DNA of 64,000 nucleotides, taken from contig NZ_CP049906.1 of NCBI RefSeq assembly GCF_011305535.1, positions 62,001 to 126,000 of the forward strand, read 5' to 3'. The position numbers were made by a program, and so were the translations under genes. Below the pieces are notes generated by a model. It was given only the letters and a program-made list of their open reading frames with translations. It was not told the DNA's origin and did no database searches. This stretch comes from Diaphorobacter sp. HDW4B (GTDB lineage Bacteria > Pseudomonadota > Gammaproteobacteria > Burkholderiales > Burkholderiaceae_C). Below, piece by piece: positions 44,482 through 59,432 of this stretch (positions within the stretch are counted from its first letter, which is position 1; each line of letters opens with the position of its first letter).

Positions 44482-44503
44482 GTATTTTGGTATACCAAAA
44501 TAC
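44482..44503. promoter_or_regulatory. GntR/FCD operator, site 1
   Basis: A perfect 22-bp palindrome centred on TTGGTATACCAA, extended to GTATT and AATAC arms, 19 bp after the regulator stop and about 120 bp before the nitroreductase start. It is the longest and best of five copies. Confidence 0.85.
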
Positions 44504-44624
44504 GCAACTGATTTAGAATTTTCGGCGGCCTGTCGGCAAGGGCTGCCGCAGGTGTCGATGAAGCACGCGCGTCCTTGCGACAGAACCAGCTGTCTCTCCA
44601 CGCAATACGACAAGGATGACCACC

Positions 44625-45215
44625 ATGGTGCTCGACACTGCCGGCGCTGACGCGCTGTTTCTCAACGCCCGCTCTCAGAACGGTTTTCTTGCCGACCGCC
44701 CTGTCGAGGAGGCCACGCTGCGCCGCCTCTATGAGCTCATGAAAATGGGGCCCACCAGTGCCAACTGCAGTCCTCTGCGTGTGGTGTTTCTCACCACCGC
44801 CGAGGCCCGCGCGAGGCTGGTGCCTGCACTCAGTCCGGGCAATGTGGCCAAGACCGCGTCTGCGCCCGTCACCGCGCTGCTGGCGTGGGACACGCGCTTT
44901 TTCGAGCAGGCCACGCGCCTGTTCCCGCACAACCCGCAGCTCTACGATGGGTTTGCGAACAATGCCGAGCACGCCCATGCCACGGCGTTTCGCAATGCCA
45001 CCTTGCAGGCGGGCTATTTTCTGCTTGCCGCGCGGGCCGTGGGTCTGGATTGCGGGCCGATGTCGGGGTTCAACGAAGCGTTGGTCAATTCCACCTTCTT
45101 TCCCGACGGACAATACCGCATCAATTTCTTGTGCAATCTCGGTTATGGAGACCCCGAGAAGCTGTTCGGCAGATTGCCGCGTCTGGCCTTCGAGGAGGCT
45201 TGCGAACTGCTCTGA
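44625..45215 (+). CDS. Nitroreductase family protein, RutE-like
   Basis: A 196-residue FMN-dependent nitroreductase of the malonic semialdehyde reductase (RutE) group. It has MKMGPTSANCSPLRVVFL (FMN site) and NATLQAGYFLLAARAVGLDCGPMSGF (the helix and glycine-rich loop of the group). RutE reduces malonic semialdehyde to 3-hydroxypropionate. No other rut genes are near, so here it may reduce another semialdehyde or a nitro compound. ATG 44625 has AAGGA at good spacing, while ATG 44616 abuts it. Confidence 0.87.
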   Translation: MVLDTAGADALFLNARSQNGFLADRPVEEATLRRLYELMKMGPTSANCSPLRVVFLTTAEARARLVPALSPGNVAKTASAPVTALLAWDTRFFEQATRLFPHNPQLYDGFANNAEHAHATAFRNATLQAGYFLLAARAVGLDCGPMSGFNEALVNSTFFPDGQYRINFLCNLGYGDPEKLFGRLPRLAFEEACELL

Positions 45216-45311
45216 GAGCGTGCCTCGGCTTCGCATGCGGAGCCGACTTTGTTCTAGAGTTTGAGCACTAATGGTGATATCTATTGATATTTTGTATTTT
45301 CTTATGTATTC

Positions 45312-45323
45312 TTGGTATACCAA
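45312..45323. promoter_or_regulatory. GntR/FCD operator, site 2
   Basis: An exact TTGGTATACCAA palindrome, 21 bp before the Bug receptor start, within an A/T-rich promoter-like tract (TATTTTCTTATGTATTC). Confidence 0.85.
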
Positions 45324-45343
45324 ACAAGAAATCAAGGAAGACA

Positions 45344-46315
45344 ATGTATCGAACACTCGCCACAGTGGCTGCTGCAACCCTCGCACTGTGCGCCGCAAGC
45401 TCCGCTCTCGCACAGGGCAACTGGCCCAGCAAGCCCATCACCATCGTCGTGCCCTTCGGCGCGGGCGGCAACACCGATGTGATGGCGCGCATGGCAGCCG
45501 CCCATCTTGGCAAGGCGCTGGGCACCTCGGTGGTGGTGGACAACAAGCCCGGTGCGTCGGGCCTGATCGCCGCGCGTCAGGTGCTGGGTGCACCGGCTGA
45601 CGGCCACACGCTGTTCATGGCGACGGCCACGCAGATCGTCACCGCGCCATTCGTGAACGCGAGCTTCAATTTCGATGCGCTCAAGGAATTCGCGCCGGTG
45701 GTCAACATTGGCGCCAACTCCTTTGTGCTGACCACGCGCTCCTCGTTGCCAGCCAAGAATGTGGGCGAGCTGATCACGTTGGCCAAGCAGACTCCCGGCA
45801 AGATCACTTATGGCAGCGGCGGCACAGGTGCGCTCACGCAGTTGTCGGCCTATCTTTTTGCCAAGCGGGCAGGCGTGGAGATGACCCACGTGCCCTACAA
45901 GGGCGGCGCGGCCGTGATGACCGATCTGATCGGCGGCCAGATCGATATGTATTCCGCCAGTCCGTCGGAAGTCATTCCGCAGATGAACAGCGGAAAGATT
46001 CGCCTGCTCGCCATCTCCAGCCCCACGCGCCTGAAGGAGTTGCCGAACGTGCCCACCATTGCCGAGACCTTTCCCGGCTATGAAGTGAGCACCTGGAACG
46101 GTCTGGTGGCCAAGGCCGGCACACCGCCCGAAGTGCTCGACCGCATCGCAAGCGAGGTCGCGAAGATGAAGGACGATCCGGCCATCGTCAAGAAACTCGA
46201 AGACATGGGCGTGGTGCCGATGTTCGTGACCCGTGCCGCCTTTGGCGCGCAGATCCAGCGCGAAGTGGACATGTGGGGCAAGGCCCTCAAGAACTCCGGC
46301 ATCCAGGCCGATTGA
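45344..46315 (+). CDS. Bug-family tripartite tricarboxylate receptor, copy 3
   Basis: A 323-residue periplasmic receptor. The signal peptide is cleaved near SSALAQG; the Bug opening WPSKPITIVVPFGAGGNTD, VVDNKPGASGLIAA and MTHVPYKGG blocks follow. It is preceded by operator site 2 and followed by FAH and VOC genes. It should therefore bind the carboxylate that this pathway degrades. ATG 45344 follows AAGGAAGACA. No TctAB genes are present. Confidence 0.92.
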   Translation: MYRTLATVAAATLALCAASSALAQGNWPSKPITIVVPFGAGGNTDVMARMAAAHLGKALGTSVVVDNKPGASGLIAARQVLGAPADGHTLFMATATQIVTAPFVNASFNFDALKEFAPVVNIGANSFVLTTRSSLPAKNVGELITLAKQTPGKITYGSGGTGALTQLSAYLFAKRAGVEMTHVPYKGGAAVMTDLIGGQIDMYSASPSEVIPQMNSGKIRLLAISSPTRLKELPNVPTIAETFPGYEVSTWNGLVAKAGTPPEVLDRIASEVAKMKDDPAIVKKLEDMGVVPMFVTRAAFGAQIQREVDMWGKALKNSGIQAD

Positions 46316-46382
46316 AGCATCAAAGAGCAAGTGAAGGTGCGCAGCGACTGCTGTGCAGCATATTGAAAGCAAGGAACGAGAC

Positions 46383-47303
46383 ATGCAATGGTTTGGAATC
46401 GCCGCCTACGCGGCAAGCAATGGTGGTGAACGCGTGGGACTGGTGGTGGACGAGAAGGTCTACGACGCACAGGACGCTTTGAAGGCTTCGGGCCTGCAGT
46501 TGCCCGCCGATCTGGGCACGTTGCTCGCCCACTGGGAAAGCTCTGGCGCAATCGTCAAAGCGCTTGAAGACGCGGGCGCGGCCATCCGCAGCGGAAAGCT
46601 GGAGTTGCCCGTGCAGCGCGGCGCAATCGGCGTGCCCTACTCGCCCACGCGCATCTTCGCCACGGCATCGAACTACTACGAACACGCGGCTGAGATGGGC
46701 ACCAAGCTGGCTGCACGCAGCGAGAGTACGCCCTACATTTTCATCAAGGCCGACAGCAGCATCACGGCAACCAAGACCGCCGTGGTGATGCCATCGAACA
46801 CCATGAAGCTCGACTGGGAAGTGGAACTGGCCGTCATCATCGGCAAGGGCGGTCGCAACATCAGCGCTGCGAATGCATACGAGCACATCGCGGGCTACAC
46901 CGTGATCAACGACGTGAGCGCGCGCGACCTCACACGCCGTTCGGACTATCCGTTCTCGCACGACTGGTTCCGCGGCAAGAGTTTTGACACCTTCGCGCCC
47001 ATCGGCCCCTGGTTCGTGCCGCGCGACTGTCTGGGCGATCCGATGAAGCTACGCATGCAGCTCACGGTGAATGGCGAATCCATGCAGGACGCGCTGACAG
47101 AAGGCATGATTTTCAACATCGCCGAGCAGATCGAATACCTCTCCAGCATCCTCACGCTGCGCCCCGGCGACATGATCGCAACCGGCACGCCGACGGGGGT
47201 GGGCATGGGCAAGGGCATCTTCCTGAAGCCGGGCGACGTGATGGTCGCATCGGTCGAAGACATCGGCTCCATCGAAAACCACATCGTGGCCGCTGCACAA
47301 TAA
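46383..47303 (+). CDS. Fumarylacetoacetate hydrolase (FAH) family protein
   Basis: A 306-residue FAH-fold enzyme. The metal and catalytic region is intact: DWEVELAVIIGKGGRNIS, GYTVINDVSARD, FAPIGPWFV, and GDMIATGTPTGVGMG at the C-terminus. Family members cleave C-C bonds of fumarylpyruvate or acylpyruvates, or act as hydratase/decarboxylase in meta-cleavage routes. It follows the Bug gene by 67 bp. Paired with the VOC dioxygenase, a ring-cleavage role is plausible. ATG 46383 has GGAACGAGAC upstream. Confidence 0.9.
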   Translation: MQWFGIAAYAASNGGERVGLVVDEKVYDAQDALKASGLQLPADLGTLLAHWESSGAIVKALEDAGAAIRSGKLELPVQRGAIGVPYSPTRIFATASNYYEHAAEMGTKLAARSESTPYIFIKADSSITATKTAVVMPSNTMKLDWEVELAVIIGKGGRNISAANAYEHIAGYTVINDVSARDLTRRSDYPFSHDWFRGKSFDTFAPIGPWFVPRDCLGDPMKLRMQLTVNGESMQDALTEGMIFNIAEQIEYLSSILTLRPGDMIATGTPTGVGMGKGIFLKPGDVMVASVEDIGSIENHIVAAAQ

Positions 47304-47349
47304 CGGATCAGGAGCGAGCGCATCCATGCGCTCGCCAGGAGACAAGACG

Positions 47350-47907
47350 ATGACGCAGACAGAAAAAAGCAAGCTCAGGCCGCGCCGACTCGGGCACATG
47401 GTGCTCATGGTGCGCGACATCCAGAAGTCGGCCAAGTTCTACACCGAGGTGCTGGGACTGGAAGTGTCGGACTGGATCGGTGAGAACATGGTGTTCCTGC
47501 GCGCAGGCACCGATCACCACGATCTCGCGCTCGCGCAATTGCCCGACCAGAACTCGCCCGACTACAACGACCTGCCGCGCTATTCGCGCCCTGGGCTCGA
47601 GCATTTCTCGTACCTGATCGACAGCGAGGAAGAGATGGAGCGCTCCGTGAAAGTGCTGCAGGAGCACGGCGTCGAGATCGTGCGCGGCATCGGTCGCCAC
47701 GGCCCCGGCAACAACCTGTTCCTCGTCTTCAAGGACCCGGACGGCAACAACGTCGAGGTGTATTGCGACATGACCCAGATCCCGCAGGACGGCAAGCATC
47801 AGGCCGAAGTGTGGGAGCGCAATCTGGAGAGCTTCGACCAGTACCGGCTCGAGCGCTTCGTCGTGCCGCCGCCGGCACATCTGGTGGCGTCCAAGACGCA
47901 GAAGTAA
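47350..47907 (+). CDS. VOC-fold dioxygenase (catechol 2,3-dioxygenase-like)
   Basis: A 185-residue VOC protein related to extradiol dioxygenases. RRLGHMVLMVRDIQKSAKFY supplies the first His ligand, GLEHFSYLI the second, and NNVEVYCDM the Glu ligand, a complete 2-His-1-Glu iron site. The C-terminal extension WERNLESFDQYRLERF is typical of the group. It could open an aromatic ring whose product passes to the FAH enzyme. ATG 47350 follows CAGGAGACA. A terminator follows. Confidence 0.85.
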   Translation: MTQTEKSKLRPRRLGHMVLMVRDIQKSAKFYTEVLGLEVSDWIGENMVFLRAGTDHHDLALAQLPDQNSPDYNDLPRYSRPGLEHFSYLIDSEEEMERSVKVLQEHGVEIVRGIGRHGPGNNLFLVFKDPDGNNVEVYCDMTQIPQDGKHQAEVWERNLESFDQYRLERFVVPPPAHLVASKTQK

Positions 47908-47939
47908 AGCCTCTCAAAAATCAATGCGAGCGGAAGTTT

Positions 47940-47969
47940 CGGGGGACGTCATGTCCCCCGCTTTTGTTT
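47940..47969 (+). terminator. Intrinsic terminator after the VOC dioxygenase
   Basis: CGGGGGAC, loop GTCAT, GTCCCCCG, then CTTTTGTTT: an eight-bp GC stem with a T-rich tail. Confidence 0.82.
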
Positions 47970-48041
47970 GAGCGGGCAAGCCGTCGTCGAGGCAAAGCGT
48001 GCCTTCGGTACAGCATAGACATTCATCACAAAGCCACTACC

Positions 48042-49088
48042 TTACCCCTCGTCCACCCCCGCCGCATGTCGCAACACGCCCGGCGGCAGTTGCGCCATTT
48101 TCATGGTGAGCTTGCGCAGCGCCGTGGCGTTGGCATAGCCGACACGCTGGGCAACGGCTTCCAGCGGCAAATCGCCCTGTGCCAGCAAGCGCTGGGCGTG
48201 GCGCATGCGCACCGTGTTGACGAGTTGCAGCGGTGCAAGCCCCGTGCTGGCGGCGATGCGGCGTGACAGGGTGCGCGCCGTCATGCCCAGCGCATCGGCC
48301 GCGTCAGCAATGGTGGGGATGTGGGGCAGGCGCGCTTCGATCAGGGCTTCAAAGCGCATGGCCGTGTCGTCGCCCGCGCCGCGCATATGTTCCCACACGC
48401 GGTAGCGCGCCTGACTGCTGCGGCTGTCCACCAGCAGGTATTGCATGACGCGTTGTGCCACGGCTTCGCCCTCTTGGCCGCCGATGGAGGCTTGCACCAG
48501 GTGCAGCATCAAATCGGCCTGGGCCATGGCGGCACCAGCGCTGGTGATGCGGCCATCTTCCACCAGCATGCGGTTTTCATCCAACTGGGCCTTGGGAAAC
48601 TGACGGCGCACAAAATCGCCCAGACGCCAGTGCGTGGTGGCGCGCCGCCCATCCAGCAAACCCGCCATGCCCAGCAGCAGCACACCCGAGCAGGAAGCGG
48701 CCACACGTCCTCCCGCTGCGTAGTGCCGCGCAGCCAACTGAGCGTAGGCCGTGGCGTCGGGTGCAGCCATGCGCGCCTGCAAGCGCTCTTGCGCATAACG
48801 TTCGTTGATGTTGCCCTGTCCGGCCGCGCTGTAACCGGGGACATCCCCATCCAGCCCAATGCCGGGGATGACCAGCACCGATTGCGGCGACAGGCGCAAG
48901 CCCGCCAGCGGCGTTGCGGACATCGACATGCCGCTGGACAAAGCCACCTGCGACGCGAAGCTGGCGACCTGCCAATCCACGCTGCCAGTCGGCGCGCCGC
49001 AACGCCTGGCAAAGCTCAGAATGTCGAGGCTGGCACCTACGCTACCGGCCAGAACACCTTCTGGCACCAGGATAGTAAAACTGGTCAT
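48042..49088 (-). CDS. GlxA-type AraC-family regulator
   Basis: A 348-residue regulator. The N-terminal DJ-1/PfpI-like domain (about 1-190) has VLVIPGIGLDGD and AASCSGVLLLGMAGLLDGRRATTHW, with the nucleophile-elbow Cys in SCSG. The C-terminal AraC domain (about 240-345) has two helix-turn-helices (IADAADALGMTARTLSRRI; LEAVAQRVGYANATALRK). It is divergent from an MFS gene and probably controls it. It lies inside the GntR regulon span but has no TTGGTATACCAA site. Confidence 0.9.
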   Translation of the reverse strand: MTSFTILVPEGVLAGSVGASLDILSFARRCGAPTGSVDWQVASFASQVALSSGMSMSATPLAGLRLSPQSVLVIPGIGLDGDVPGYSAAGQGNINERYAQERLQARMAAPDATAYAQLAARHYAAGGRVAASCSGVLLLGMAGLLDGRRATTHWRLGDFVRRQFPKAQLDENRMLVEDGRITSAGAAMAQADLMLHLVQASIGGQEGEAVAQRVMQYLLVDSRSSQARYRVWEHMRGAGDDTAMRFEALIEARLPHIPTIADAADALGMTARTLSRRIAASTGLAPLQLVNTVRMRHAQRLLAQGDLPLEAVAQRVGYANATALRKLTMKMAQLPPGVLRHAAGVDEG

Positions 49089-49138
49089 TGCTAGTCTAAT
49101 TTGGATGTTTATTGCACATTTCAGACAAGCACTCTAGC

Positions 49139-50419
49139 ATGGCCCACAAAACAATCCTTTCGAGACAGGCCATGACTGCAGAGACACCAACACGAGCACC
49201 AACACCCGCTCCCAGCCCTGCGACGGCGCAGACAACGGCCAGCACAATCCGCCATCCGTTCGCCATCGCGCTCGCCTTGTCGCTGGGTGCCGCCGTGGCG
49301 CTGGGGATTTCGCGTTTTTCGTATGGCTTGCTGCTGCCGCCCATGCGCGATGACCTCGGTTGGTCGTATCTGCTGGCGGGCAGCATGAACACCGCCAACG
49401 CCCTGGGCTACTTTGGCGGCGCGCTGCTCACGCCGTGGCTGATGCGGCGTTTTGGCGCTTGGCGTCTGCTGATGGTGGGTTCTGTTTTGGCAGGTGCCTT
49501 CATGCTGGCGTCAGGTGCCATCACCGATACGGGAGCGTTGATGGTGCAGCGCGTGCTTGCGGGTGCGGCGAGTGCCTTGGTCTTCATAGCAGGTGGCGTG
49601 CTTGCAGCGCGCCTGGGCAGCATGTTTGCCACGAATGCGGGCTTTTTGATTGGCCTGTACTACGGCGGCACGGGTATTGGCATTGCGCTGTCGGCCTTGC
49701 TGGTACCCGCCAGTTTGGGCGCTGCACATGCGCAAGGCGTGGCGCACAGTTGGCAATGGCCATGGCTGGCCTTGGGGTTGGCCTGCTTTGTGGCGGCTGC
49801 TGCCATGGCGTGGCCCGCGCGGCAGATTGGCGAGCCCACCCGTGCGCAGGCAGGCAGCAGCCAGTTTGCGCTGCGTGATTTTGGCTTTGGTCTGGGCGGC
49901 TATTTCATGTTTGGCGCGGGCTATATCGGCTACATGACCTTTGTCGTCGCCTTGCTCAAGCAGCAAGGCATGTCGCCCACACGCATCACCGTGTTCTACG
50001 CGCTGCTGGGCGTAGCTGTTCTGGTCAGCTCGCGCATCTGGGCACGCATGCTCGACTACTTCAAGGGCGGGCAGTCGCTCGCCATCCTGAACCTGGTGCT
50101 GGCCGTGGTCACCATCTTGCCCGCGCTCACGGCATGGGTGCCGGTGGTGTTTGTGTCAGGCATGGTGTTTGGCGCGGTGTTTTTGTCGGTCGTGGCATCG
50201 ACCACGACGCTGGTGCGCCACAACCTCCCACCAAGCGCATGGCCTGCGGGCATCAGCGCTTTCACCACCGTGTTTGCGCTCGGCCAGATCATCGGCCCGA
50301 CGCTGGTCGGTTGGGTCGCCGACGGCGAGGGCGGACTCGAGCGCGGACTGGTGGTATCGGCGGCTTGCTTGCTGCTGGGGGCGGTGTTGGGGTGGCAGCA
50401 GAAGGCCTTGAATGTTTGA
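49139..50419 (+). CDS. MFS transporter, YbfB/YjiJ family
   Basis: A 426-residue MFS protein with twelve TM segments; the YbfB/YjiJ group features GISRFSYGLLLPPMRDDLGW and GGVLAARLG are clear. It exports or imports an unknown small molecule at the inner membrane. The start is uncertain: ATG 49139, ATG 49172 (GAGACAGG upstream) or TTG 49112. The 30-40 residues before the first helix are Thr/Pro/Ala-rich. Divergent from the GlxA-type regulator. Confidence 0.87.
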   Translation: MAHKTILSRQAMTAETPTRAPTPAPSPATAQTTASTIRHPFAIALALSLGAAVALGISRFSYGLLLPPMRDDLGWSYLLAGSMNTANALGYFGGALLTPWLMRRFGAWRLLMVGSVLAGAFMLASGAITDTGALMVQRVLAGAASALVFIAGGVLAARLGSMFATNAGFLIGLYYGGTGIGIALSALLVPASLGAAHAQGVAHSWQWPWLALGLACFVAAAAMAWPARQIGEPTRAQAGSSQFALRDFGFGLGGYFMFGAGYIGYMTFVVALLKQQGMSPTRITVFYALLGVAVLVSSRIWARMLDYFKGGQSLAILNLVLAVVTILPALTAWVPVVFVSGMVFGAVFLSVVASTTTLVRHNLPPSAWPAGISAFTTVFALGQIIGPTLVGWVADGEGGLERGLVVSAACLLLGAVLGWQQKALNV

Positions 50420-50623
50420 TGGCAACGACTGCTTGCGGTCATCAAACAGAGGGGGTTTCTTGAGATTGGCGAAATCGAACTTTTCGATCAAGATAAGCGC
50501 AATCCATCTCTATGGATTTGGGAAGCGAACTCATCTACTGTCTGCGGTCGACGCGCAGAATTACCGGCTGCGTCCAAGCCGATGAGTTCATGTCCATCCA
50601 TTTGCGACCTCAGGAAATCCCCG

Positions 50624-51043
50624 ATGCCCTATCCGCCAGTTTTAGATGCAAGCCTCGTTGGGTCATATCCAGCTGCTGCCAAGGCAGGGGGCGGCTACGT
50701 GTGGGATGCTGTACTCGAATACCGTGTATGGCTTCACCCCGAGCGCGGTGCGCCAGACGAAGCCGATGGCAGTGACTACTACTATGCCTTTGACTCTTAT
50801 GAAGAGGCGAAAGAGTTCGCAACTGCGACAACGGGCGCCGAAGAACCGCTCGCGCTCGTACTTCAAAGAGAGTACATCGATGAGCCAGAGGACGGAGTTT
50901 TCATGCACATCTGCGAAGAGCGAGTCACTGAATGGCCAGTTGCATTCCTCCGCCGACCAAGAAGAACCGACAAGACGATTCCCAACTTTCTTGCCCCTGA
51001 TGCGCCTGACAATCGTTTGGAAATTCTCAGGGGAACTCAATGA
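50624..51043 (+). CDS. Conserved small protein of unknown function
   Basis: A 139-residue acidic soluble protein. Features: YPPVLDASLVGSYPAAAKAGG, a YVWDAVLEYRVWLHPERGAPD strand, DYYYAFDSYEEAKEFA, and REYIDEPEDGVFMHI. Database relatives are, as I recall, sometimes labelled as acetyltransferases, but I see no acetyl-CoA motif. ATG 50624 has AGGAAA upstream. There is no operon link beyond a 58-bp gap to the next gene. Confidence 0.7.
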   Translation: MPYPPVLDASLVGSYPAAAKAGGGYVWDAVLEYRVWLHPERGAPDEADGSDYYYAFDSYEEAKEFATATTGAEEPLALVLQREYIDEPEDGVFMHICEERVTEWPVAFLRRPRRTDKTIPNFLAPDAPDNRLEILRGTQ

Positions 51044-51101
51044 TTCCATCAACAACGCTTGAAAAGCGTTCAACGATCAACGCCAGCAAGGAGACTCGTT
51101 C

Positions 51102-51656
51102 ATGATGCGATTGCAGCGGAATATCTGTCTTTTCACCGGAGCCCTGCTGCTCGCGTTCGGCGTGCATGCGGCCGAAATGTTGGAGCAGCGCTCGTTCGCC
51201 AACGAGAACGTGGGGGCCGTCACGCTCACGGCGCCCAAGGACTGGAAAGGCGTCCAGCGCGCGCATATCCACTTCGGCACGACCTTCTACCGGCTCGTGC
51301 CGCCGAAGGAAGGGCAGTTCGATTTCGAGATTCTGGTCAACGACCTCAAGCATATGAAGATGGATGCGCTGGTGGACAAGGACCTTGAGCGTTACATCGA
51401 AAGCAATATGGCCCAGGCGGCACCGCAATCCCGCGAGGGAACCGTCAAGGCAGCGCGCTTTGGCAAGGCGGGAAATGCCGTGTATGCGCGCTTGACCGAC
51501 AAGGCGCCCAAGCCGGGCGAGTTCCACTACTTCACGCAAGGAGTGAAGCTGCAAGGCCAGAAGGTAGTGCTGTTCACGCTGATGTCCAACGACAAAGATG
51601 GCGCGGTGCTCAAGCAGGCGCTGCAGATCGTCGACAGCGTTCAGTTCAAGGACTGA
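51102..51656 (+). CDS. Secreted protein of unknown function
   Basis: A 184-residue protein with a signal peptide (about 1-23, cleaved after VHAA). The mature part is a mixed alpha/beta single domain (FANENVGAVTLTAPKDW, GTTFYRLVPPKEGQFDFEI, KVVLFTLMSNDKDG) suggestive of a PsbP/Mog1-like fold; that is only a guess. Periplasmic location expected. AAGGAG precedes the start. Confidence 0.65.
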   Translation: MMRLQRNICLFTGALLLAFGVHAAEMLEQRSFANENVGAVTLTAPKDWKGVQRAHIHFGTTFYRLVPPKEGQFDFEILVNDLKHMKMDALVDKDLERYIESNMAQAAPQSREGTVKAARFGKAGNAVYARLTDKAPKPGEFHYFTQGVKLQGQKVVLFTLMSNDKDGAVLKQALQIVDSVQFKD

Positions 51657-51672
51657 CGCGAAGTTTGCCGTC

Positions 51673-52617
51673 TCAAGCTGCGATGACCATCGCTGGTCGG
51701 CGGCCTTGGAGCGCATCCGCAAAACTGGCCAGCAGCACATCCGTCTGCGCACGATGCGCGGCTGGCGAACGGCCGGCCATGTGCGGCGTGAGCAGCACGT
51801 TGTCCATGGCTTTGAGCGCGTCGGGAATGGTGGGTTCGCCTTCGAACACATCCAGCCCCGCGCCTGCGATCACATCGGCCTGCAGTGCATGCACCAGATC
51901 AGCGGTATGCACCACCGACCCGCGCGCCACATTCACGACAAAGCCCTGTGAACCCAAAGCGCGCAGCACCTCGGCATTGATGATGTGGCGCGTGGCTGCG
52001 CCGCCGGGACACGCGGCCACCAGATAGTCGCACTGCTCGGCCATCTTGAGCAGATCGGACTCATGGGCATAAGGCAGATCCGAGCGCGACGTTCGGGTGT
52101 TGTAGAGCACCCGCATGCCGAATGCGGCGCAGCGGCGGGCAATCCCTTGACCGATGCGACCCATGCCGATGATGCCCACGGTCGCACCACACAACGTGGG
52201 CTGCGCGGCGCGTGCGCTGTCCCATTGTCCATTGCGCACGGCATGCGTCAGTACGGCGTAGCCACGGCTGAGCGCAAGCATGAAGCCGAGCGCGTGATCC
52301 GCCACGGTTTCGTCGTTGGTGCCCGGCGCGTTGGTGACGATCACCCCGCGTGCATGCGCCGCAGGCACATCCACGTTCTCGTAGCCCACGCCGAAGGCGC
52401 TCACGACACGCAACGCGGGCATCTGCTGAATCCATTCGGCAGACAGACCTGTCGTGCCATTGGTGACGACGGCGACGATGCGATCGAGCGGAACAAGCGC
52501 ATCCACCGGATCACTCAGCCCACGCGCCGCCAGGTGCAATTGGTAGCGCTGTGCCAGTGCCTCGCGCGTCATTGCGGGCAAGGGGATCAGAGAGAGAACG
52601 TGGGGGCGGCTGTCCAT
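51673..52617 (-). CDS. D-isomer-specific 2-hydroxyacid dehydrogenase
   Basis: A 314-residue dehydrogenase. The NAD motif GIIGMGRIGQGIA and the catalytic residues are present: Arg in NVARGSVVH, Glu in DVFEGEP, His in LLTPHMAGR. It reduces a 2-keto acid (glyoxylate or hydroxypyruvate type) or runs in reverse. It is 24 bp after the VOC gene stop in the same direction, and probably shares its promoter and operator site 3. Confidence 0.9.
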   Translation of the reverse strand: MDSRPHVLSLIPLPAMTREALAQRYQLHLAARGLSDPVDALVPLDRIVAVVTNGTTGLSAEWIQQMPALRVVSAFGVGYENVDVPAAHARGVIVTNAPGTNDETVADHALGFMLALSRGYAVLTHAVRNGQWDSARAAQPTLCGATVGIIGMGRIGQGIARRCAAFGMRVLYNTRTSRSDLPYAHESDLLKMAEQCDYLVAACPGGAATRHIINAEVLRALGSQGFVVNVARGSVVHTADLVHALQADVIAGAGLDVFEGEPTIPDALKAMDNVLLTPHMAGRSPAAHRAQTDVLLASFADALQGRRPAMVIAA

Positions 52618-52641
52618 GCGTGGGCTCCGGGCAATCTGGCG

Positions 52642-53073
52642 TCAAGCTGTCTTCTGCGGCTCGGCTTCTTCCACCGGCTGCACGTGCTTGACGGCACCCT
52701 TCCAGCCTGATTCGGTGATGTCGAACACGATGCCGTCGGGCGTGCGGTACTTCACTTCGTAGAACACGTTGGGATCGGTTTCCTTGCGGCCCGTGAGGTA
52801 AGTGCCACCAGCGGCGATCACCTTCTTCTCAGCCTCTTCCAGGTTGTCCACCCACATGCCGAAGTGGATCACGCCGCGCACGTCCTTGAGCTTTTCATAG
52901 CCAGGCACTGCTTCGTCCTTGAAGTTCAGCAGCGCCACGTTCATCACGCCGTCCGTCATGTACCAGCCTCGCATGGCGCGACCCGCGCGGGTCATGCCGA
53001 AGGCCTGCTCAAAGAAGGTGGCGGCGGCTTCCGGGTCGCTCACCGAGAGGGCGATGTGTCTGAGTTTTTCCAT
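52642..53073 (-). CDS. VOC family protein
   Basis: A 143-residue vicinal oxygen chelate protein. EKLRHIALSVSDPEAAATFFEQAFG at the N-terminus holds a metal His, RGVIHFGMWVDNLEEAEK the second, and YRTPDGIVFDIT a third-ligand region. It could be an isomerase, lyase or dioxygenase. AAAGGAGC lies at the right distance. It is divergent from the hydrolase gene at 53165 with operator site 3 between. Confidence 0.83.
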   Translation of the reverse strand: MEKLRHIALSVSDPEAAATFFEQAFGMTRAGRAMRGWYMTDGVMNVALLNFKDEAVPGYEKLKDVRGVIHFGMWVDNLEEAEKKVIAAGGTYLTGRKETDPNVFYEVKYRTPDGIVFDITESGWKGAVKHVQPVEEAEPQKTA

Positions 53074-53127
53074 GCTGATGCTCCTTTGTGTATATCAGTT
53101 AGCGAATTATATAGACTGAATCTGTAT

Positions 53128-53157
53128 TTGGTATACCAATTAATGCTTGTGTATAAT
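53128..53157 (+). promoter_or_regulatory. GntR/FCD operator site 3 overlapping a hydrolase promoter
   Basis: TTGGTATACCAA (53128-53139) is exact. Its first half, TTGGTA, can act as the -35 box, with an 18-bp spacer to TATAAT (53152-53157). This places the site to block RNA polymerase directly. The divergent VOC gene would be controlled too. The -10 ends eight bases before the hydrolase ATG. Confidence 0.78.
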
Positions 53158-53164
53158 TTTTAGC

Positions 53165-54094
53165 ATGATTCACGAAAACCAACCTTTCGGCTCGCTGAGC
53201 ACGCATGAGCAGTCCTTGCTCGATGCCGCAGGCGCTGTCTGGGCCACGGACATCAACAAGCACCGCGATCTGGTCGTGAGGACCTACTCCCCGCTGGTGC
53301 TGCAGGCCGACAACAGCGGCATCGACGTCGAGCGCGATGTGTCTTACGGCAGTGCCGAACGCCAGCGCCTCGATGTCTACACACGCGATGAATGGCGCAA
53401 TGAATCGCGCGATGTGCTCATGTTCTTTCATGGCGGGGCCTTCATTCGTGGCAACAAGAGCGCCAACGGCGCGATCTACGACAACGTCACCTACTGGTTT
53501 GCGCATCAAGGCTGTGTGGCAGTGAATGTGGAATACCGGCTGGCAGCAGATGCGCCCTATCCTGGCGGCGCAGAGGACGTGATTGCCGCCGTGCGCTGGG
53601 TTCAGCAGCACATTGCCGCCAGCGGGGGCAACCCGCGTCGCATCTTTCTGATGGGGCATTCGGCAGGCGGATCGCATGTGGCGAGTGCGCTGCTCGATCC
53701 GGCGATGCTCGATCGGCTGAATGAGAACGACGTGGCCGGAGCCATGTTGATCAGCGCGCGCCTGAAGGCCGATGTGCTGCCCGACAACCCCAACGCCAAC
53801 GGCGTGCGTGCTTACTTTGGCGAAGACGAAACGCTCTACGCCGAGCGCTCGCCCGCAAGCCATGTGGAGCGCAGCAATGTGCCGCTGCTGATTGCCGTGG
53901 CGGAGCACGAAAACACCCATCTGGACCGCTACGGGCGCGAGTTCTACGACTGCGCACTGCAAAGCGATCGCACGGCGATCACGCGCTTTCTCAAGCTGAA
54001 TCGGCACAACCACACCTCCATCGTTGCGCACTTCAACAGCGGCGAAGAAACGCTGGGCCCGCAACTGATCCGTTTCATGCACGACACGCGCTGA
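53165..54094 (+). CDS. Alpha/beta hydrolase (esterase/kynurenine formamidase-like)
   Basis: A 309-residue alpha/beta hydrolase of the hormone-sensitive-lipase-like group. It has the oxyanion HGGAFIRG, the nucleophile elbow GHSAGG, an acid region near the AVAEHENTHLD segment, and His in LNRHNHTSI. Related enzymes are carboxylesterases and arylformamidases. With a kynureninase farther right, formamidase activity is possible but unproven. No ribosome binding site is visible; the -10 box lies eight bases before the ATG, so the mRNA is probably leaderless. Confidence 0.87.
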   Translation: MIHENQPFGSLSTHEQSLLDAAGAVWATDINKHRDLVVRTYSPLVLQADNSGIDVERDVSYGSAERQRLDVYTRDEWRNESRDVLMFFHGGAFIRGNKSANGAIYDNVTYWFAHQGCVAVNVEYRLAADAPYPGGAEDVIAAVRWVQQHIAASGGNPRRIFLMGHSAGGSHVASALLDPAMLDRLNENDVAGAMLISARLKADVLPDNPNANGVRAYFGEDETLYAERSPASHVERSNVPLLIAVAEHENTHLDRYGREFYDCALQSDRTAITRFLKLNRHNHTSIVAHFNSGEETLGPQLIRFMHDTR

Positions 54095-54147
54095 AGTGCG
54101 CCCACACCACCACCGATTCATTCGACCACAACGGAGACAAGCAAGCC

Positions 54148-55065
54148 ATGGCTGCCACACCCCAACCCCGCAACGCACGGGTTTTCACACCGGCCCTCAC
54201 CCCTTTCAACGCCGACCAGAGCGTCAACGTCGAGGCCTTCATCGACTTCTGCCGTTGGCTGATTTCGCAGGGCTCGGGATTGGCGGTCTTCGGCACCAAC
54301 AGCGAGGCCAATTCGCTGGGACTCGAAGAGAAGATTCTGCTGCTCGAAAAGCTTGTCGAGGCTGGCATTCCTGCCGACCAGATGGTGCCTGGCACGGGCC
54401 TGTGCGCGTTGCCCGAAACCATTGCGCTCACGCGCGCTGCCGTGGCGCTGGGCTGCGCGGGCACCTTGACGCTGCCGCCCTTCTATTTCAAGCCAGCGTC
54501 GGACGACGGACTGTTCGACTATTACACGCGCATCATCGAGGCCGTGGGTTCCGAGCGGCTCAAGCTCTACCTGTATCACATCCCGCAGTTCACCGGCGTG
54601 CCGATCACGATGACGCTGATCGAGCGTCTCATCAAGGCTTATCCCAGGACCGTGGTGGGCATCAAGGACAGTTCCGGCAACTGGGAAAACACCGAACGCA
54701 TGCTGCGCGAGTTCCCCGGTTTCGAGGTCTATCCGGCCTCCGAAGCCTTGCTCGAAAAGGCCTTGCCACTGGGCGCGGCGGGTTGCATTTCGGCGACTGC
54801 CAATGTGCAGCCCGCCACCATTGCCCGGGCACTGAAGGCCTGGGGAACATCGGAGTTCGATGCCCTGCAGGCGCAACTCAAGGTCGTGCGCAACATCTTC
54901 CAGGCGCAGCCCATGATTCCTGCGCTCAAGCATGTGGTCGGCGCGCATTTTGGCAACGCCGATTGGAGCCATGTGCGCCCACCACTGGTAGCAGCCGATG
55001 CATCCTGGTCCGCGCCGCTGATGGCCCAGCTCGCGGAAGCGGGCTTCAACATGCAGCCGGCATGA
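54148..55065 (+). CDS. DHDPS/NAL-family aldolase or dehydratase
   Basis: A 305-residue TIM-barrel class I aldolase-family enzyme. The catalytic Tyr in LYHIPQ and the Schiff-base Lys in VVGIKDSSGNW are present, and GTNSEANSLG replaces the usual GTTGE loop. Family reactions: dihydrodipicolinate, N-acetylneuraminate, 2-keto-3-deoxysugar and hydroxybenzylidenepyruvate aldol chemistry. It starts 54 bp after the hydrolase and overlaps the next gene by 4 bp. Confidence 0.88.
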   Translation: MAATPQPRNARVFTPALTPFNADQSVNVEAFIDFCRWLISQGSGLAVFGTNSEANSLGLEEKILLLEKLVEAGIPADQMVPGTGLCALPETIALTRAAVALGCAGTLTLPPFYFKPASDDGLFDYYTRIIEAVGSERLKLYLYHIPQFTGVPITMTLIERLIKAYPRTVVGIKDSSGNWENTERMLREFPGFEVYPASEALLEKALPLGAAGCISATANVQPATIARALKAWGTSEFDALQAQLKVVRNIFQAQPMIPALKHVVGAHFGNADWSHVRPPLVAADASWSAPLMAQLAEAGFNMQPA

Positions 55066-55484
55066 GCAACACAAGCCACGCGACCAGCAGCTTGCCCAAG
55101 CCGCTCGGCGCATATGCACGCTGGCGTCAGCATGGCTCGGCACTGTATGTCGCAGGCGTGAGCGCACGCTTGCCCGATGGGCGCATCGACGGCGTCACAC
55201 GCGACGTCAGTGGTGCAGTGACCTATGACGTGGCAGCGCAGACCCGCCGTGTGCTGTGCAACATCGAAGGGATACTGCTCGAAGCGGGAGCCACGCTGGC
55301 CGACTGTCTCGACATGACGGTGTTTCTCGTGAACCCGGACGACTTTGCCGTCTTCAACGCCACCTATGCCGAGTTCTTCGGCGCGCAAGCGGAACCACCC
55401 ACGCGCACCACCGTGGTCGTGCGCGGTCTGCCGCATGCGGACATGGTGGTGGAGATCAAGGCCATCGCGCGCGCGCCGCGTTGA
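55062..55484 (+). CDS. Rid-family protein, 2-aminomuconate deaminase-like
   Basis: A 140-residue Rid (YjgF) fold protein. It has the group features of 2-aminomuconate deaminases (AmnD/NbaF type): GAYARWRQHGSALYVAGVSA, RLPDGRI, RRVLCNIEGILLEAGATL, TRTTVVVRGLPHADMVVEIK. NbaF-type enzymes remove ammonia from 2-aminomuconate. RidA-type 2-iminoacid hydrolase activity is the alternative. ATG 55062 overlaps the aldolase stop (ATGA). Confidence 0.82.
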   Translation: MSNTSHATSSLPKPLGAYARWRQHGSALYVAGVSARLPDGRIDGVTRDVSGAVTYDVAAQTRRVLCNIEGILLEAGATLADCLDMTVFLVNPDDFAVFNATYAEFFGAQAEPPTRTTVVVRGLPHADMVVEIKAIARAPR

Positions 55485-55508
55485 TGTGCACTTGTCTGCG
55501 CCTGTTTC

Positions 55509-55533
55509 AAGCAGCCCTTGCGGCTGCTTTTTT
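55509..55533 (+). terminator. Intrinsic terminator after the Rid gene
   Basis: AGCAGCC, loop CTTGC, GGCTGCT, followed by six Ts. It closes the hydrolase-aldolase-Rid run. Confidence 0.85.
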
Positions 55534-56045
55534 CATGGACCAACGGTCTTGCGCACGTCACTCGGAACCGATGCGCAAGCAACCGCATTCATCGCGACGG
55601 TGCATTTCAAAAGACACATGGAGATGTCGGCCCTCATACCCGCGCAGCGACTTTTCTCACTTTTCTCTACTCGTTTTCACGTAGATATAGCTTTGCAGAC
55701 TACATATTCTGCTCTGAACAATATATATTCTTGGTATACCCAAACGCGTTGATGTATTTCATTCGATCAAGGGAAGCCTGAAACGCCCCACGCATCCGTA
55801 AGGAAGCCGGATGCAGGCCTCGCAAGAGACCGGGGAGTCGGTCGATGCCATGCAGCAGCGCGGTGGGGGAACAAAGGCATTGCGAGACGCCTGGTGGACA
55901 GCAAACAAGCACTTCACGGACCGAACCCGAACAAGGAGACGCATGACGGCAGACACGACAACGAGAACAACAACGACAGAAACGCTCGCATGAGCGGACA
56001 CAAGGCAGAACGAGTCAAACGATCAATCAACTGGAGACGCAAATC
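55534..56045. promoter_or_regulatory. Long leader/promoter region of the first porin
   Basis: About 510 bp without a firm gene. It contains operator site 4 (55731) and then about 300 nt to the porin ATG. A 60-codon frame (55811-55993, Thr/Arg-rich end, AAGGAAG four bases ahead) might be a leader peptide, but I cannot support it further. The long untranslated leader may allow small-RNA control of the porin. Confidence 0.4.
55731..55743. promoter_or_regulatory. GntR/FCD operator, site 4 (one mismatch)
   Basis: TTGGTATACCCAA: the TTGGTATACC core is exact, with one extra C before the closing AA. It lies in an A/T-rich tract 300 bp upstream of the porin start. Confidence 0.7.
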
Positions 56046-57086
56046 ATGAAGAAAAACAAGGTATTGGCGGCTGTGCTGCTGCTCGTGGGGAGCACGGCAT
56101 TCGCGCAGTCCAAGGTGACCCTCTCGGGGTTCGTGGACCTGAATCTGGAAGTGCTCAAGAACTCGGGCACCGAAGGCACGCGCAAGCGCATCAGCAGCGG
56201 CGGGCTGAACAACTCGCGCTTCAACATCAGCGGCATCGAGGACCTGGGCGGTGCCAACCGTGCCTACTTCACCATCGAGCCGATGTTCGGTGCGGACACC
56301 GGCGAGATGAGCGCGCAGTTCCGCCAGTCCTTTGTCGGCCTGCGTGGCGACTGGGGTGACGTGACTCTGGGTCGCCAGTTCACGCCATCGTTCTGGGTTG
56401 CGGGCTATGCCGATCCGAACTGGGCATCGTCGTACAGCATGGTCAACGCCATGCAGTTCTTCTACGCGTCCTACCGCGTGGACAACGCGCTGCAGTACAA
56501 GACCGCCAACTTCGGTGGCTTGCAAGGTCGCTTCATGTATGCCTTCGGCAAGGAAGACACGACCAAGAACGGTCGCTTCATGAGCGCCGCCGCCGAATAC
56601 CGCAACGGCCCGCTGTTCCTCGGCTTCGCTGCGGAAAAGGCTTATCAGGTCGACGTCTACAACAAGACTTCGATGAAGAGCTCGCGCGACAACTACCTGT
56701 CGGCCACCTACCGCTTCGGCAGCGTCGAGCCCACGTTCGTGTTCCACACCTACGACGGCTACTACGCCTATCCTCCTTATGTGGGCTTCACCTCCAAGGG
56801 CTGGGACACGCAACTGGGCGTGCGCTGGAACGTCAGCGACCGCACACGCGTTCACGCCAGCTACGTGCATCGCAAGGACGACAAGAACGTCGACATCGGC
56901 ACGGCAGATGGCCTGACGCTGGGCGTGACGCACGGCCTGTCCAAGCGCACCGATGTCTACATCCTCGCCTCGCATGTGAAGAACAAGAAGGATGTGAAGA
57001 TCGGCTATCCCGTGAGCTGGAGTGCCAATCCGTCCGCTGGCCAGAGCCCATCGGGTCTGGCAATCGGCATTCGCCATGCGTTCTGA
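56046..57086 (+). CDS. Burkholderiales-type outer-membrane porin, first copy
   Basis: A 346-residue general porin (Porin_4 family). The signal peptide is cleaved after AFAQ. Strand one is SKVTLSGFVDLNLE, the SFVGLRGDWGDVTLGRQFTP loop-3 block follows, and the last strand ends AIGIRHAF with the terminal Phe needed for assembly. It is probably a trimeric channel in the outer membrane. Operator site 4 upstream links it to the GntR regulon, so it may admit that pathway's substrate. CTGGAGACGC precedes the ATG. Confidence 0.92.
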   Translation: MKKNKVLAAVLLLVGSTAFAQSKVTLSGFVDLNLEVLKNSGTEGTRKRISSGGLNNSRFNISGIEDLGGANRAYFTIEPMFGADTGEMSAQFRQSFVGLRGDWGDVTLGRQFTPSFWVAGYADPNWASSYSMVNAMQFFYASYRVDNALQYKTANFGGLQGRFMYAFGKEDTTKNGRFMSAAAEYRNGPLFLGFAAEKAYQVDVYNKTSMKSSRDNYLSATYRFGSVEPTFVFHTYDGYYAYPPYVGFTSKGWDTQLGVRWNVSDRTRVHASYVHRKDDKNVDIGTADGLTLGVTHGLSKRTDVYILASHVKNKKDVKIGYPVSWSANPSAGQSPSGLAIGIRHAF

Positions 57087-57134
57087 GCACCCGCGTGGCA
57101 GCGATTCAGAACACCTCCAGAACATTTCCCCGAG

Positions 57135-58946
57135 ATGCAATCCATGAACCATTCCCACCGCACACCCCGTCAACTGTGCAAGACGGCCGCTGCCGCCATG
57201 CTCTTCGCGGCATTGGGTGCCAGTGCCTTTGCGCAGGACAAGGCCACGCAACCCGCAGCGGCTCAGGCTGCGCCGGTCGATCCCAACTTCGTGCCCGGCA
57301 CACCCGACATCAAGGACCCATGGCTGGCCAAGTGGCTGGCCGCCACGCCCGACCGCACGCCCAAGGAGCTCAAGCCCGGTATCGACTACGGCATGAACCC
57401 CAAGACCGGCGAATTCGTCTGGCCCAAGGCCACGCCCGAAGTCCACAAGGGCCAGAAGTTCCCCGGCATGCTCGATCATTGGGACAAGACCACCTTCACC
57501 AAGAACGTGAAGGTGCTGGCGTTCTATGAAAATGTGGCGTCGCCTTTCCACGTGTGGAACAACATCATCGATTTCGACGGCAAGCGTTATCTGTACCTGC
57601 ACGACCGCGACTACCTGCGCATCATGGACGTGACCGATCCGGCCAACGCCAAGGTCGTTTTCTCCAAGGGCGCGGTCTGGGGCCCCAAGGGTCCAAGCGA
57701 GCGCTGGAATGCCGCGACGGTGACCGACTACCTCGGCGGTGCAACCATCGCGTGGAGCAAGAAGCTCAACAAGCCGGTGATGGTGGCGTCATATGAAATC
57801 GGACGCTACGGCCTGATGAACGAGAAGATGAAGGAGCCGGAAAAGGTTGCCGCACAGCGCAACTACAGCTCGCTCAAGGGCTTCAAGGTCTATGAGATGA
57901 ATGGCCCGCTGCCCAGCGACTGGAAGCTGATCGCCACGCGCACCACCGATTACCAGCACCCCGATGCGCCCATCGGCCAGCAGCAGGGTTCGGGCTCGCT
58001 CGATTCGCCCGAGTACTACGGCGGCAAGTACATGATTCTGGCGGCCGCGCCCAACGACAGCTACGCACTCAGCGAGTATCCGAACTACCTGTACTCGCCC
58101 GGCTACCAGGTGTGGGACATGAGCGATCCGGCCGATCCGAAGTTCCTCTCGCAGGTCACCGTTCCCGGTCAGGTCGTGGACGACAAGGACAGCATTTTTG
58201 CCTACCTGCAGAACCCACGCGCGGGCAATCGCGCATCGTGGATGGGCGCGCGCATTCCGATGTTCCTGCCCAAGCCGCTGGAGCAAGGCGGCAAGATCGG
58301 CTTCGGCGCGATGGGCGGTCTGGGTCTGTGGTCGTTCGACATGAGCGATCCGGCCAATCCGAAAATCCTCGACAACGTGAACACACCGCCCTCGTTTGCA
58401 GGCACGGAATACGACAACGCCGACGTGAGCCAGTACGAGCGCACCGGCTACGTGTTCACCAGCGGCTATCCGATGAACCGCGACTGCTACGAGCCCTACA
58501 AGGACATCTTCGTGGTGAACGCGAAGAACCCAGCCAGGATGAAGGTCGAGACCACACTGCCACGCCCCAAGCCACCGGAAGGCGCGCCCTACACCGACTT
58601 CTGCCAGCGCGGCGGCAACTTCGGCCCCAAACGCTCCAACGCGATTGGCCAACCGGGCGGATGGCGTCAGAACATCGTGCCGTACTCGTTCTACAACGCG
58701 GGCGTGCAGATGTTCGACGTGAGCAACCCGGCCGATCCCAAGATCGCGGGCTACTTCGTGCCGCCGCTGGCTGACACCACGCAACTGCCGGGCTACACGC
58801 TGGGCAAGGGGGTGCTTGCGATGTACACCGAGTACGACCGCAACATCATGTGGGCGTTCACCGAACATGGTGCTTATGCGCTGTCTTCGCCACTGCTTGG
58901 CGAGCCTTTGATGGGGGCTCCGAAGAAGCCGTTCCCTGCGCGTTGA
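57135..58946 (+). CDS. LVIVD-repeat secreted beta-propeller protein
   Basis: A 603-residue secreted protein with a signal peptide ending near SAFAQD. It has repeated LVIVD-type propeller blades (YLYLHDRDYLRIMDVTDPANAKVV, YQVWDMSDPADPKFLSQV, LWSFDMSDPANPKILDNV, VQMFDVSNPADPKIAGYF), about one per 70 residues. Periplasmic or surface location expected. It lies 48 bp after the porin and is probably co-expressed. The role is unknown; binding of substrate or of porin is speculation. The start is ATG 57135 or 57144. Confidence 0.85.
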   Translation: MQSMNHSHRTPRQLCKTAAAAMLFAALGASAFAQDKATQPAAAQAAPVDPNFVPGTPDIKDPWLAKWLAATPDRTPKELKPGIDYGMNPKTGEFVWPKATPEVHKGQKFPGMLDHWDKTTFTKNVKVLAFYENVASPFHVWNNIIDFDGKRYLYLHDRDYLRIMDVTDPANAKVVFSKGAVWGPKGPSERWNAATVTDYLGGATIAWSKKLNKPVMVASYEIGRYGLMNEKMKEPEKVAAQRNYSSLKGFKVYEMNGPLPSDWKLIATRTTDYQHPDAPIGQQQGSGSLDSPEYYGGKYMILAAAPNDSYALSEYPNYLYSPGYQVWDMSDPADPKFLSQVTVPGQVVDDKDSIFAYLQNPRAGNRASWMGARIPMFLPKPLEQGGKIGFGAMGGLGLWSFDMSDPANPKILDNVNTPPSFAGTEYDNADVSQYERTGYVFTSGYPMNRDCYEPYKDIFVVNAKNPARMKVETTLPRPKPPEGAPYTDFCQRGGNFGPKRSNAIGQPGGWRQNIVPYSFYNAGVQMFDVSNPADPKIAGYFVPPLADTTQLPGYTLGKGVLAMYTEYDRNIMWAFTEHGAYALSSPLLGEPLMGAPKKPFPAR

Positions 58947-59013
58947 TGCAGCGCTGAACTGCATGGGGCAGCTGCTTTTCGACCTGCGGCAGCTGCTCGT
59001 GACGTGGGATTTG

Positions 59014-59038
59014 ATGCCGCCTTGTGCGGCATTTTTTT
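59014..59038 (+). terminator. Intrinsic terminator after the LVIVD gene
   Basis: ATGCCGC, loop CTTGT, GCGGCAT and a run of seven Ts, 67 bp after the stop. Confidence 0.85.
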
Positions 59039-59098
59039 GTTCGTCTCTTTGTCGCTGGTTTTGATGGATTGACGAACTTGTTGCCTGTGCTTCGTTGA

Positions 59099-59226
59099 AG
59101 AGTCTTCGTTTTGGGGTGCCGATATGGCCCCTCATACTTTGTTGCAAAGCCTTGCCGTACGGAAGTACTGTCTGCGGCTTTGCGTCGCGTCTGAGGGGCC
59201 ATCTCGGCATTGTGGTGCTTGATTCA
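59099..59226. repeat. Intergenic inverted-repeat element, copy A
   Basis: About 128 bp almost matched by copy B at 60672. It starts AGAGTCTTCGTTTT and contains an 18-bp inverted repeat: TGCCGATATGGCCCCTCA at 59117-59134 against TGAGGGGCCATCTCGGCA at 59192-59209. A GTACGGAAGTACTG stretch lies inside. It looks like a small mobile or REP/ERIC-like element that folds into a long hairpin. It carries no coding. Confidence 0.8.
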
Positions 59227-59247
59227 TGCCTTGCGTTCGCTGCGCAG

Positions 59248-59297
59248 CTTGCTGTTCTTGCTGTTCTTGCTGTTCTTGCTGTTCTTGCTGTTCTTGC
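59248..59297. repeat. 9-bp tandem repeat (CTTGCTGTT)n
   Basis: Five exact units of CTTGCTGTT and a partial sixth (CTTGC), directly abutting a second tandem repeat. About 175 bp upstream of the porin start. Confidence 0.9.
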
Positions 59298-59338
59298 AGG
59301 TTTGAAGGTTTGAAGGTTTGAAGGTTTGAAGGTTTGAA
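59298..59338. repeat. 8-bp tandem repeat (AGGTTTGA)n
   Basis: Five exact units of AGGTTTGA. It abuts the 9-bp repeat and lies about 80 bp upstream of operator site 5, so copy-number change would alter promoter spacing. Confidence 0.9.
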
Positions 59339-59420
59339 GCATTTGCTCGGCTGCGTGGTAAATCCGGTGAAACCCCGAAGGAAAGCCCTGAAGTTTTTTC
59401 GATGAATGCAATATCATTGC

Positions 59421-59432
59421 TTGGTATACCAA
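59421..59432. promoter_or_regulatory. GntR/FCD operator, site 5
   Basis: An exact TTGGTATACCAA palindrome, 39 bp before the second porin start, flanked by A/T-rich DNA. Confidence 0.82.

Follow-up and report, generated by a model that had tools for sequence, protein, structure and literature searches.

A Predicted Regulon of Five Palindromic Operators and a GntR/FCD Regulator in Diaphorobacter sp. HDW4B

The DNA considered here, referred to as the window, is a stretch of 64,000 nucleotides from Diaphorobacter sp. HDW4B (contig NZ_CP049906.1, positions 62,001 to 126,000, or C2:62001-126000 in the genome coordinates used below). It contains a gene for a GntR/FCD regulator and, beyond it, five copies of the 12-base palindrome TTGGTATACCAA, standing ahead of enzyme, receptor and porin genes. 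A sequence-only reading had proposed that these palindromes, four exact and one near, define a local regulon of that regulator, joining about a dozen genes into one pathway. The features of the locus are as follows, with positions counted from the first letter of the window.

43672..44463, + strand: gene for the GntR/FCD regulator, 263 amino acids, proposed repressor (Pfam GntR 2.1e-20, FCD 6.8e-25)
44487..44498, no strand: operator 1, TTGGTATACCAA, ahead of the rutE-type gene (7/7 orthologous promoters including the window's own, one with one mismatch)
44514..44519, + strand: candidate -10 box TAGAAT of the rutE-type gene (by eye; ungapped shuffle test not significant)
44616..45215, + strand: RutE-type malonic semialdehyde reductase with a nitroreductase fold (NCBIfam NF003768, 279.6 bits; cut-off 152)
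45284..45312, + strand: candidate promoter TTGATA-N17-TATTCT of the bug operon (its final T doubles as the opening T of operator 2; shuffle test of the -10 box not significant)
45312..45323, no strand: operator 2, TTGGTATACCAA, ahead of bug-FAH-VOC1 (7/7 orthologous promoters, one with one mismatch)
45344..46315, + strand: Bug/TctC solute receptor (Pfam TctC 8.6e-64)
46386..47303, + strand: fumarylacetoacetate-hydrolase (FAH) family enzyme (Pfam FAA_hydrolase 1.5e-71)
47350..47907, + strand: VOC1, a one-module extradiol-dioxygenase-like protein (Pfam Glyoxalase 2.8e-25)
51673..52617, - strand: D-2-hydroxyacid dehydrogenase (D2HDH; Pfam 2-Hacid_dh_C 1.4e-50)
52642..53073, - strand: VOC2, a small VOC-family protein (Pfam Glyoxalase 1.6e-10)
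53106..53111, - strand: -10 box TATAAT of the VOC2 operon (mean 5.25/6 over 8 genomes; 0/2000 column shuffles)
53128..53139, no strand: operator 3, TTGGTATACCAA, common to the divergent VOC2-D2HDH and hydrolase-DapA-RidA operons (8/8 genomes, one with one mismatch)
53152..53157, + strand: -10 box TATAAT of the hydrolase operon (mean 5.38/6 over 8 genomes; shuffle fraction 0.003)
53165..54094, + strand: alpha/beta hydrolase (Abhydrolase_3 / BD-FAE, Pfam)
54148..55065, + strand: DapA-family lyase/aldolase (Pfam DHDPS 2.9e-41)
55065..55484, + strand: RidA-family deaminase (Pfam Ribonuc_L-PSP 1.9e-22)
55731..55742, no strand: operator 4, TTGGTATACCCA, ahead of porin1 (same place in 4/4 genus members compared)
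56046..57086, + strand: porin1 (Pfam Porin_4 5.4e-47)
57135..58946, + strand: 603-amino-acid protein with a weak LVIVD-repeat match (Pfam LVIVD 19.9 bits; cut-off 20.2)
59421..59432, no strand: operator 5, TTGGTATACCAA, ahead of porin2 (5/5 genomes compared, two with one mismatch)
59472..60599, + strand: porin2 (Pfam Porin_4 1e-44)

Six transcription units with 12 genes lie downstream of the five sites, in agreement with the dozen or so first proposed. These units are predicted to be rutE, bug-FAH-VOC1, VOC2-D2HDH, hydrolase-DapA-RidA, porin1-LVIVD and porin2. Operator 1 falls between the end of gntR (44463) and the rutE-type gene, operator 2 about 20 bp from the ATG of the Bug receptor gene, operator 4 about 300 bp from the ATG of porin1 and operator 5 about 40 bp from porin2. 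The genes behind the palindromes are those named in the sequence-only reading, its "nitroreductase" now being refined by NCBIfam to the RutE-type reductase; its tally of four exact copies and one near copy held as well, and only the start of the first, given as 44489, was two bases off.

A pattern search of the window located the exact copies at 44487-44498, 45312-45323, 53128-53139 and 59421-59432, and the fifth site, one mismatch away, at 55731-55742. The only further match at up to two mismatches, at 39514, has two. These six matches compare with a mean of 0.61 in shuffled sequence, and none of 100 shuffles reached six or more. When the scan with the 12-bp palindrome was extended to the whole genome (6,214,887 bases, or 6.21 Mb, in 2 contigs), all four exact copies proved to lie inside the window cluster. 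Sites with at most one mismatch numbered 11, compared with 3 for a reversed-pattern control, and the two-mismatch count was at background (66 vs 62 in the control).

Conservation in relatives is confined to the palindrome. Five orthologous promoter sets, with 31 sites in all, were compared: 55 of 60 columns were invariant in the operator and 42 of 400 in the flanks, and the core GGTATACC was present in 31/31 sites. Position 11 of the porin1 operator was off-consensus in 4/4 genomes, being C once and T three times. This count leaves out the sites of loci L047 and L048, which have rearranged promoters, and the second upstream porin1 sites of genomes G002 and G005; VOC2 relatives in L107-L113, L115 and L116, which lack most of the cluster, were not used, and L044 and L117 both belong to G004. 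As far as the contigs reach, the same genes are preceded by exact or one-mismatch sites in D. caeni (L042), G002, G003 and G004, and equally in Acidovorax soli, Acidovorax CF316, Variovorax E3 and 'Pantoea' 18069. The porin1-LVIVD-porin2 block of G002 and G005 has kept its sites even though a kynureninase region separates it from the core, whose end is about 15 kb away.

The exact 12-mer is present in 33 of 399 family genomes. Six of these carry a VOC1 relative with 94% identity or more, and their exact copies are all inside the cluster (19/19: G000, 4; G002, 5; G003, 2; G004, 2; G005, 3; G540, 3). Ten further VOC1-bearing genomes, with 71-73% identity, contain no exact copy, and all fall in a sister group. 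G001, of the same genus, has no close regulator, no VOC1 relative and no sites. The comparison with relatives bears out the initial proposal, in that sites, cluster and regulator go together from genome to genome.

The regulator itself belongs to the FadR/FCD subfamily (PF00392, 72.6 bits, cut-off 27; PF07729, 88.3 bits, cut-off 24.3). The metal-type residues of the FCD pocket follow the rule D/N-H-H-H; the corresponding candidate residues N127 and H131 are present in 23/23 homologues, and H175 and H197 in 22/22 of the homologues that reach there. The operator, composed of two half-sites as TGGT-AT-ACCA, conforms to the FadR-subfamily consensus described in the consulted part of PMC4494728, a TKGT/ACMA palindrome with a spacing of 2 or 3 nt. 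According to the same part of that paper, Arg at position 28 of the helix-turn-helix (HTH) goes with a preference for G at the site's K position (PMC4494728). Arg30 of the present regulator was equated with HTH position 28 via the spacing of E29-R30-R40, which corresponds to E34-R35-R45 in FadR (PMC4494728, Table 1).

Sister-group clusters carry ATGTATACAT ahead of the D2HDH/FAH divergon, VOC2/gntR, kynureninase and porin2 (G061 and G233 included). Among 23 regulator-bearing loci, the 11 with Arg30 contain GGTATACC in 10 cases and TGTATACA in none; the 12 with another residue (Lys in 3, Ile in 1, Val in 2 and Leu in 6) contain GGTATACC in none and TGTATACA in 11, Ensifer being the exception. 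Seven of the sister-group loci L143-L152 enter this table, and the other three (L149, L151 and L152) are without a regulator. All 26 TGTATACA copies in the non-Arg loci lie outside the cluster genes, as placed by tblastn. The Arg30/TGGT group and the Lys, Leu, Val or Ile30/ATGT-type group offer a clean test of a specificity change that involves an FCD regulator together with all of its operators.

The position of the sites relative to promoters bears on the direction of control. The -10 box starts 13 bases past operator 3 on the hydrolase side and 17 bases past it on the VOC2 side; operator 3 therefore overlies the -35 regions of the divergent pair. On the hydrolase side, TTGGTA of the operator can be read as a -35 box, with an 18-base spacer to TATAAT. 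By eye, TAGAAT recurs 15 or 16 bases past the operator in 6/7 rutE promoters, and TATTCT at the same place in 5/7 bug promoters. The reading of TTGGTA as a general -35 box was dropped except for the hydrolase side of operator 3, because -10 offsets elsewhere were not significant; an earlier -10 count had looked stronger through the pooling of three promoters.

Because operator 3 lies against conserved -10 boxes of a divergent promoter pair, effector-released repression is the likely mode of control. In the explanation that we favor, with a probability of about 0.83, the five palindromes are operators of the regulator encoded at 43672-44463, which would repress six promoters until an effector releases it, the 12 genes serving a single compound. 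A regulator dimer would bind each TTGGTATACCAA through the two half-sites and block the six promoters. An effector, probably of the small carboxylate type to judge from family membership, would enter the FCD pocket and release the regulator, and this release would turn on the 12 genes for uptake and breakdown of the compound. At the level of sequence comparison, the predicted regulator-operator link is well supported, and the local regulon first proposed is favored by the exclusive location of the sites, their placement in relatives, their fit to the family consensus, and the way in which operator and DNA-reading residue differ together in the sister group. For a catabolic cluster of 12 genes, which ranges from Comamonadaceae to Burkholderia and Ensifer, this provides a predicted regulator, an exact operator and a promoter set. 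With regulator and operator so assigned, its substrate can be sought via the compound that releases the regulator.

Several observations weigh against this explanation. Upstream of gntR itself, the window search found no site at up to two mismatches. In column shuffles, the best -10 offset was not significant for porin1 (0.24), porin2 (0.94), bug (0.34) or rutE (0.13; here the box shifts by one base between genomes, which an ungapped test cannot follow). Two one-mismatch sites elsewhere in the genome, C1:513095 and C2:127206, stand ahead of genes and are possible extra targets. Outside the six cluster-bearing genomes, the other 27 hold 28 exact copies (26 have one each, G592 two), compared with 16 for the reversed control, by a hand count over the rows listed. 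G535, with a VOC1 relative of 92% identity, is without an exact copy, although two one-mismatch sites occupy the right places. Regarding the switch in the sister group, the Arg30-bearing Xylophilus locus shows no site, its contig stopping just beyond the gene. Moreover, the R30 regulators form one clade (support 100/100) and thus represent one evolutionary switch rather than many independent tests, and the wing differs too (PMRG vs PR[HRK]G), so R30 alone need not be the cause. Finally, the G592 copies adjoin a different FCD regulator (27% identity) together with allophanate-hydrolase-like genes; therefore, the TTGGTATACCAA word is not exclusive to the cluster regulator, and other FCD proteins may share it. 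Perhaps G592 holds another regulon under the same operator word. At this locus (L153, G592:C6:204000-222000), the exact 12-mers at 6332 and 11215 lie ahead of receptor-type and allophanate-hydrolase-like genes.

The regulator might bind these sites and yet act mainly as an activator, or as a dual regulator, a reading helped by the finding that a statistically supported -10 box stands beside the operator at two of the six promoters only. This is nonetheless unlikely: activators normally bind further upstream, whereas operator 3 covers both -35 regions and operator 2 starts at the last base of its candidate -10 box (by eye). Characterised FCD proteins are, in addition, mostly repressors.

Six one-mismatch sites lie outside the window. 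Three of these (C2:167468, C2:566593 and C2:701673) fall within good reading frames, and a fourth, C1:5198546, is in a doubtful frame beside a transposase-like gene. The site at C1:513095 (L005:1501-1512) lies 25 bp upstream of a VOC-family gene outside the cluster; as an extra operator it is unsupported, the orthologues of that gene in G001-G005 having no site at up to two mismatches, and it could be strain-specific. The sixth, TCGGTATACCAA at C2:127206 (L062:5206, where L062 is G000:C2:122001-142000), lies 1.2 kb beyond the window end, in the divergent region that separates the gene of an ABC receptor from that of a second GntR protein. Through this site, the kynureninase-ABC operon might form a seventh unit, and in the sister group a GTATAC palindrome does precede kynureninase in 6/6 loci that hold the gene and its upstream region (L143, L145, L147, L148, L149 and L152), in three of them in a short form with a half length of 4. 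Such an extension is quite unlikely, however, as G002 and G005 have no site at up to two mismatches in this region. Alignment of L062:5206-5240 across G000, G002 and G005 instead revealed a distinct element that is conserved, ACC[AG]-ATATA-n-ATCTTGGTA, but no conservation of the left half TCGGTA, and C2:127206 was for these reasons left out as a sixth operator. The element is probably the second GntR's own operator. Upstream of kynureninase in G002, G005 and A. soli, no TTGGTATACCAA was found at up to one mismatch.

Another FCD paralogue, such as this second GntR, might also be what binds the five cluster sites, given that the genome contains at least 23 regulator matches and that the TCGGTATACCAA site separates the second GntR from its divergent ABC operon. 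This is very unlikely: the second GntR has Thr and Trp in place of Arg30 and Arg40, the conserved element in its own intergenic region is a different one, and the sites accompany the cluster and its own regulator across genomes. That the palindromes are chance occurrences or a dispersed repeat without a regulatory role, as the single 12-mers in 26 family genomes outside the cluster genomes might suggest, is barely credible and largely refuted by the shuffles and reversed control, the genome scan, the conservation of only 12 bases amid diverging flanks, and the intergenic placement ahead of the same genes in relatives.

Repression by the GntR/FCD protein would make this system one of a known kind, an ordinary control circuit in which the operator switch is the instructive element. 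The FadR-subfamily regulons in the sections consulted of PMC4494728 share with it a GntR HTH joined to an FCD domain, the TKGT/ACMA palindrome, Arg at HTH position 28 paired with G, and the use of a single site in a divergon, as in the operator 3 region. A 2-nt spacing is stated there for GntR, HpxS, HypR, MdcY, PrpR and UxuR. Unlike those regulons, the cluster regulator, its targets and its 12-base operator do not appear in these sections, and literature searches for the operator motif showed no bacterial regulator among the listed titles. The best NCBIfam match of the regulator is TIGR03338 phnR_burk, a GntR protein of phosphonate use in Burkholderiales, at 119.8 bits and thus below the cut-off of 271.5; unlike in that system, no phosphonate genes were recognised among the 12.

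Most of the pathway enzymes can be assigned to general families only. Among the 12 genes, the RutE-type malonic semialdehyde reductase is the one above an NCBIfam cut-off, in a scan that did not take in Bug and the porins. The closest solved relatives by sequence are 1gtt, an HPA-degradation isomerase/decarboxylase, for the FAH enzyme and 4zrs, an esterase, for the alpha/beta hydrolase. VOC1 matches the NCBIfam HpaD and catechol 2,3-dioxygenase models below cut-off, and the DapA-family protein is under the cut-off of each NCBIfam model listed. In homoprotocatechuate (hpa/hpc) meta-cleavage, HpaG- and HpaD-type enzymes are the ones that FAH and VOC1 resemble, under equivalog cut-offs; unlike hpa/hpc, the window set has RutE, DapA, RidA and a D-2-hydroxyacid dehydrogenase instead. 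The sister group and Ensifer possess the same enzymes with an SsuA-type ABC system (a label from sequence reading) in place of Bug. No matching cluster is named in the titles or abstract openings of the literature retrieved.

One lead comes from the neighboring genes. Kynureninase and an AMSDH-like dehydrogenase adjoin the cluster in the window's genome, C. metallidurans CH34 and B. arboris; in CH34, 3-HAO (PF06052) is beside the cluster too, and no gntR was found within the 24 kb read. Past the window end, L062:3220-16093 encodes an ABC transporter, kynureninase, the second GntR/FCD protein, LysR, an AMSDH-like dehydrogenase, an FAH-family decarboxylase/hydratase-type protein, RidA and an amidohydrolase, and looks like a kynurenine / 3-hydroxyanthranilate / 2-aminomuconate pathway. 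The core of the window cluster is extra to that pathway as generally known. In the sister group, kynureninase stands under the operator, which hints at a link to kynurenine. Molybdenum-hydroxylase genes, which suggest an N-heterocycle as a candidate substrate, are found beside the regulator in G233 and beside porin2 in G537 (in G012 by likeness of sequence only); in the window's clade, none was seen under the operator. In L143:16754-19051 (Pfam) and L148:17563-19782 (by likeness), a GTATAC palindrome lies between porin2 and a divergently oriented gene for a molybdenum-hydroxylase large subunit, and the sister-group regulon may include this enzyme.

We tentatively raise, with the odds somewhat against it, a more specific proposal: an undescribed kynurenine-linked degradation pathway that would use an extradiol-type VOC protein, FAH, a DapA-type lyase, RidA, D2HDH and malonic semialdehyde reductase. 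The operator code, (C)ATGTATACAT(G) or TTGGTATACCAA, would have switched across its whole regulon in concert with the residues by which the regulator reads DNA, with an ABC system and a Bug receptor replacing one another as transporter. If true, the cluster would represent a natural experiment in whole-regulon rewiring.

The remaining observations concern the layout of the cluster. Between VOC1 and D2HDH, an insert at 48042-51656 encodes an AraC/GlxA-type regulator, an MFS transporter and two small hypothetical proteins without a Pfam match. It contains no operator site and was not at that place in the relatives compared, where, without it, VOC1 and D2HDH are directly adjacent. The gap of about 300 bp between operator 4 and porin1 (55743-56045) recurs in G002, G003 and G005, at roughly 240-330 bp or more, and its length suggests a long leader RNA for the porin. 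In G002 and G005, a second operator lies about 300 bp further upstream of the porin1 site. Immediately upstream of operator 5, positions 59255-59340 consist of short tandem repeats, first of the GTTCTTGCT type and then of the GGTTTGAA type. The LVIVD protein gene (57135-58946) has counterparts in C. metallidurans (Pfam) and B. arboris (by likeness), each adjoining a small cytochrome c-like gene.

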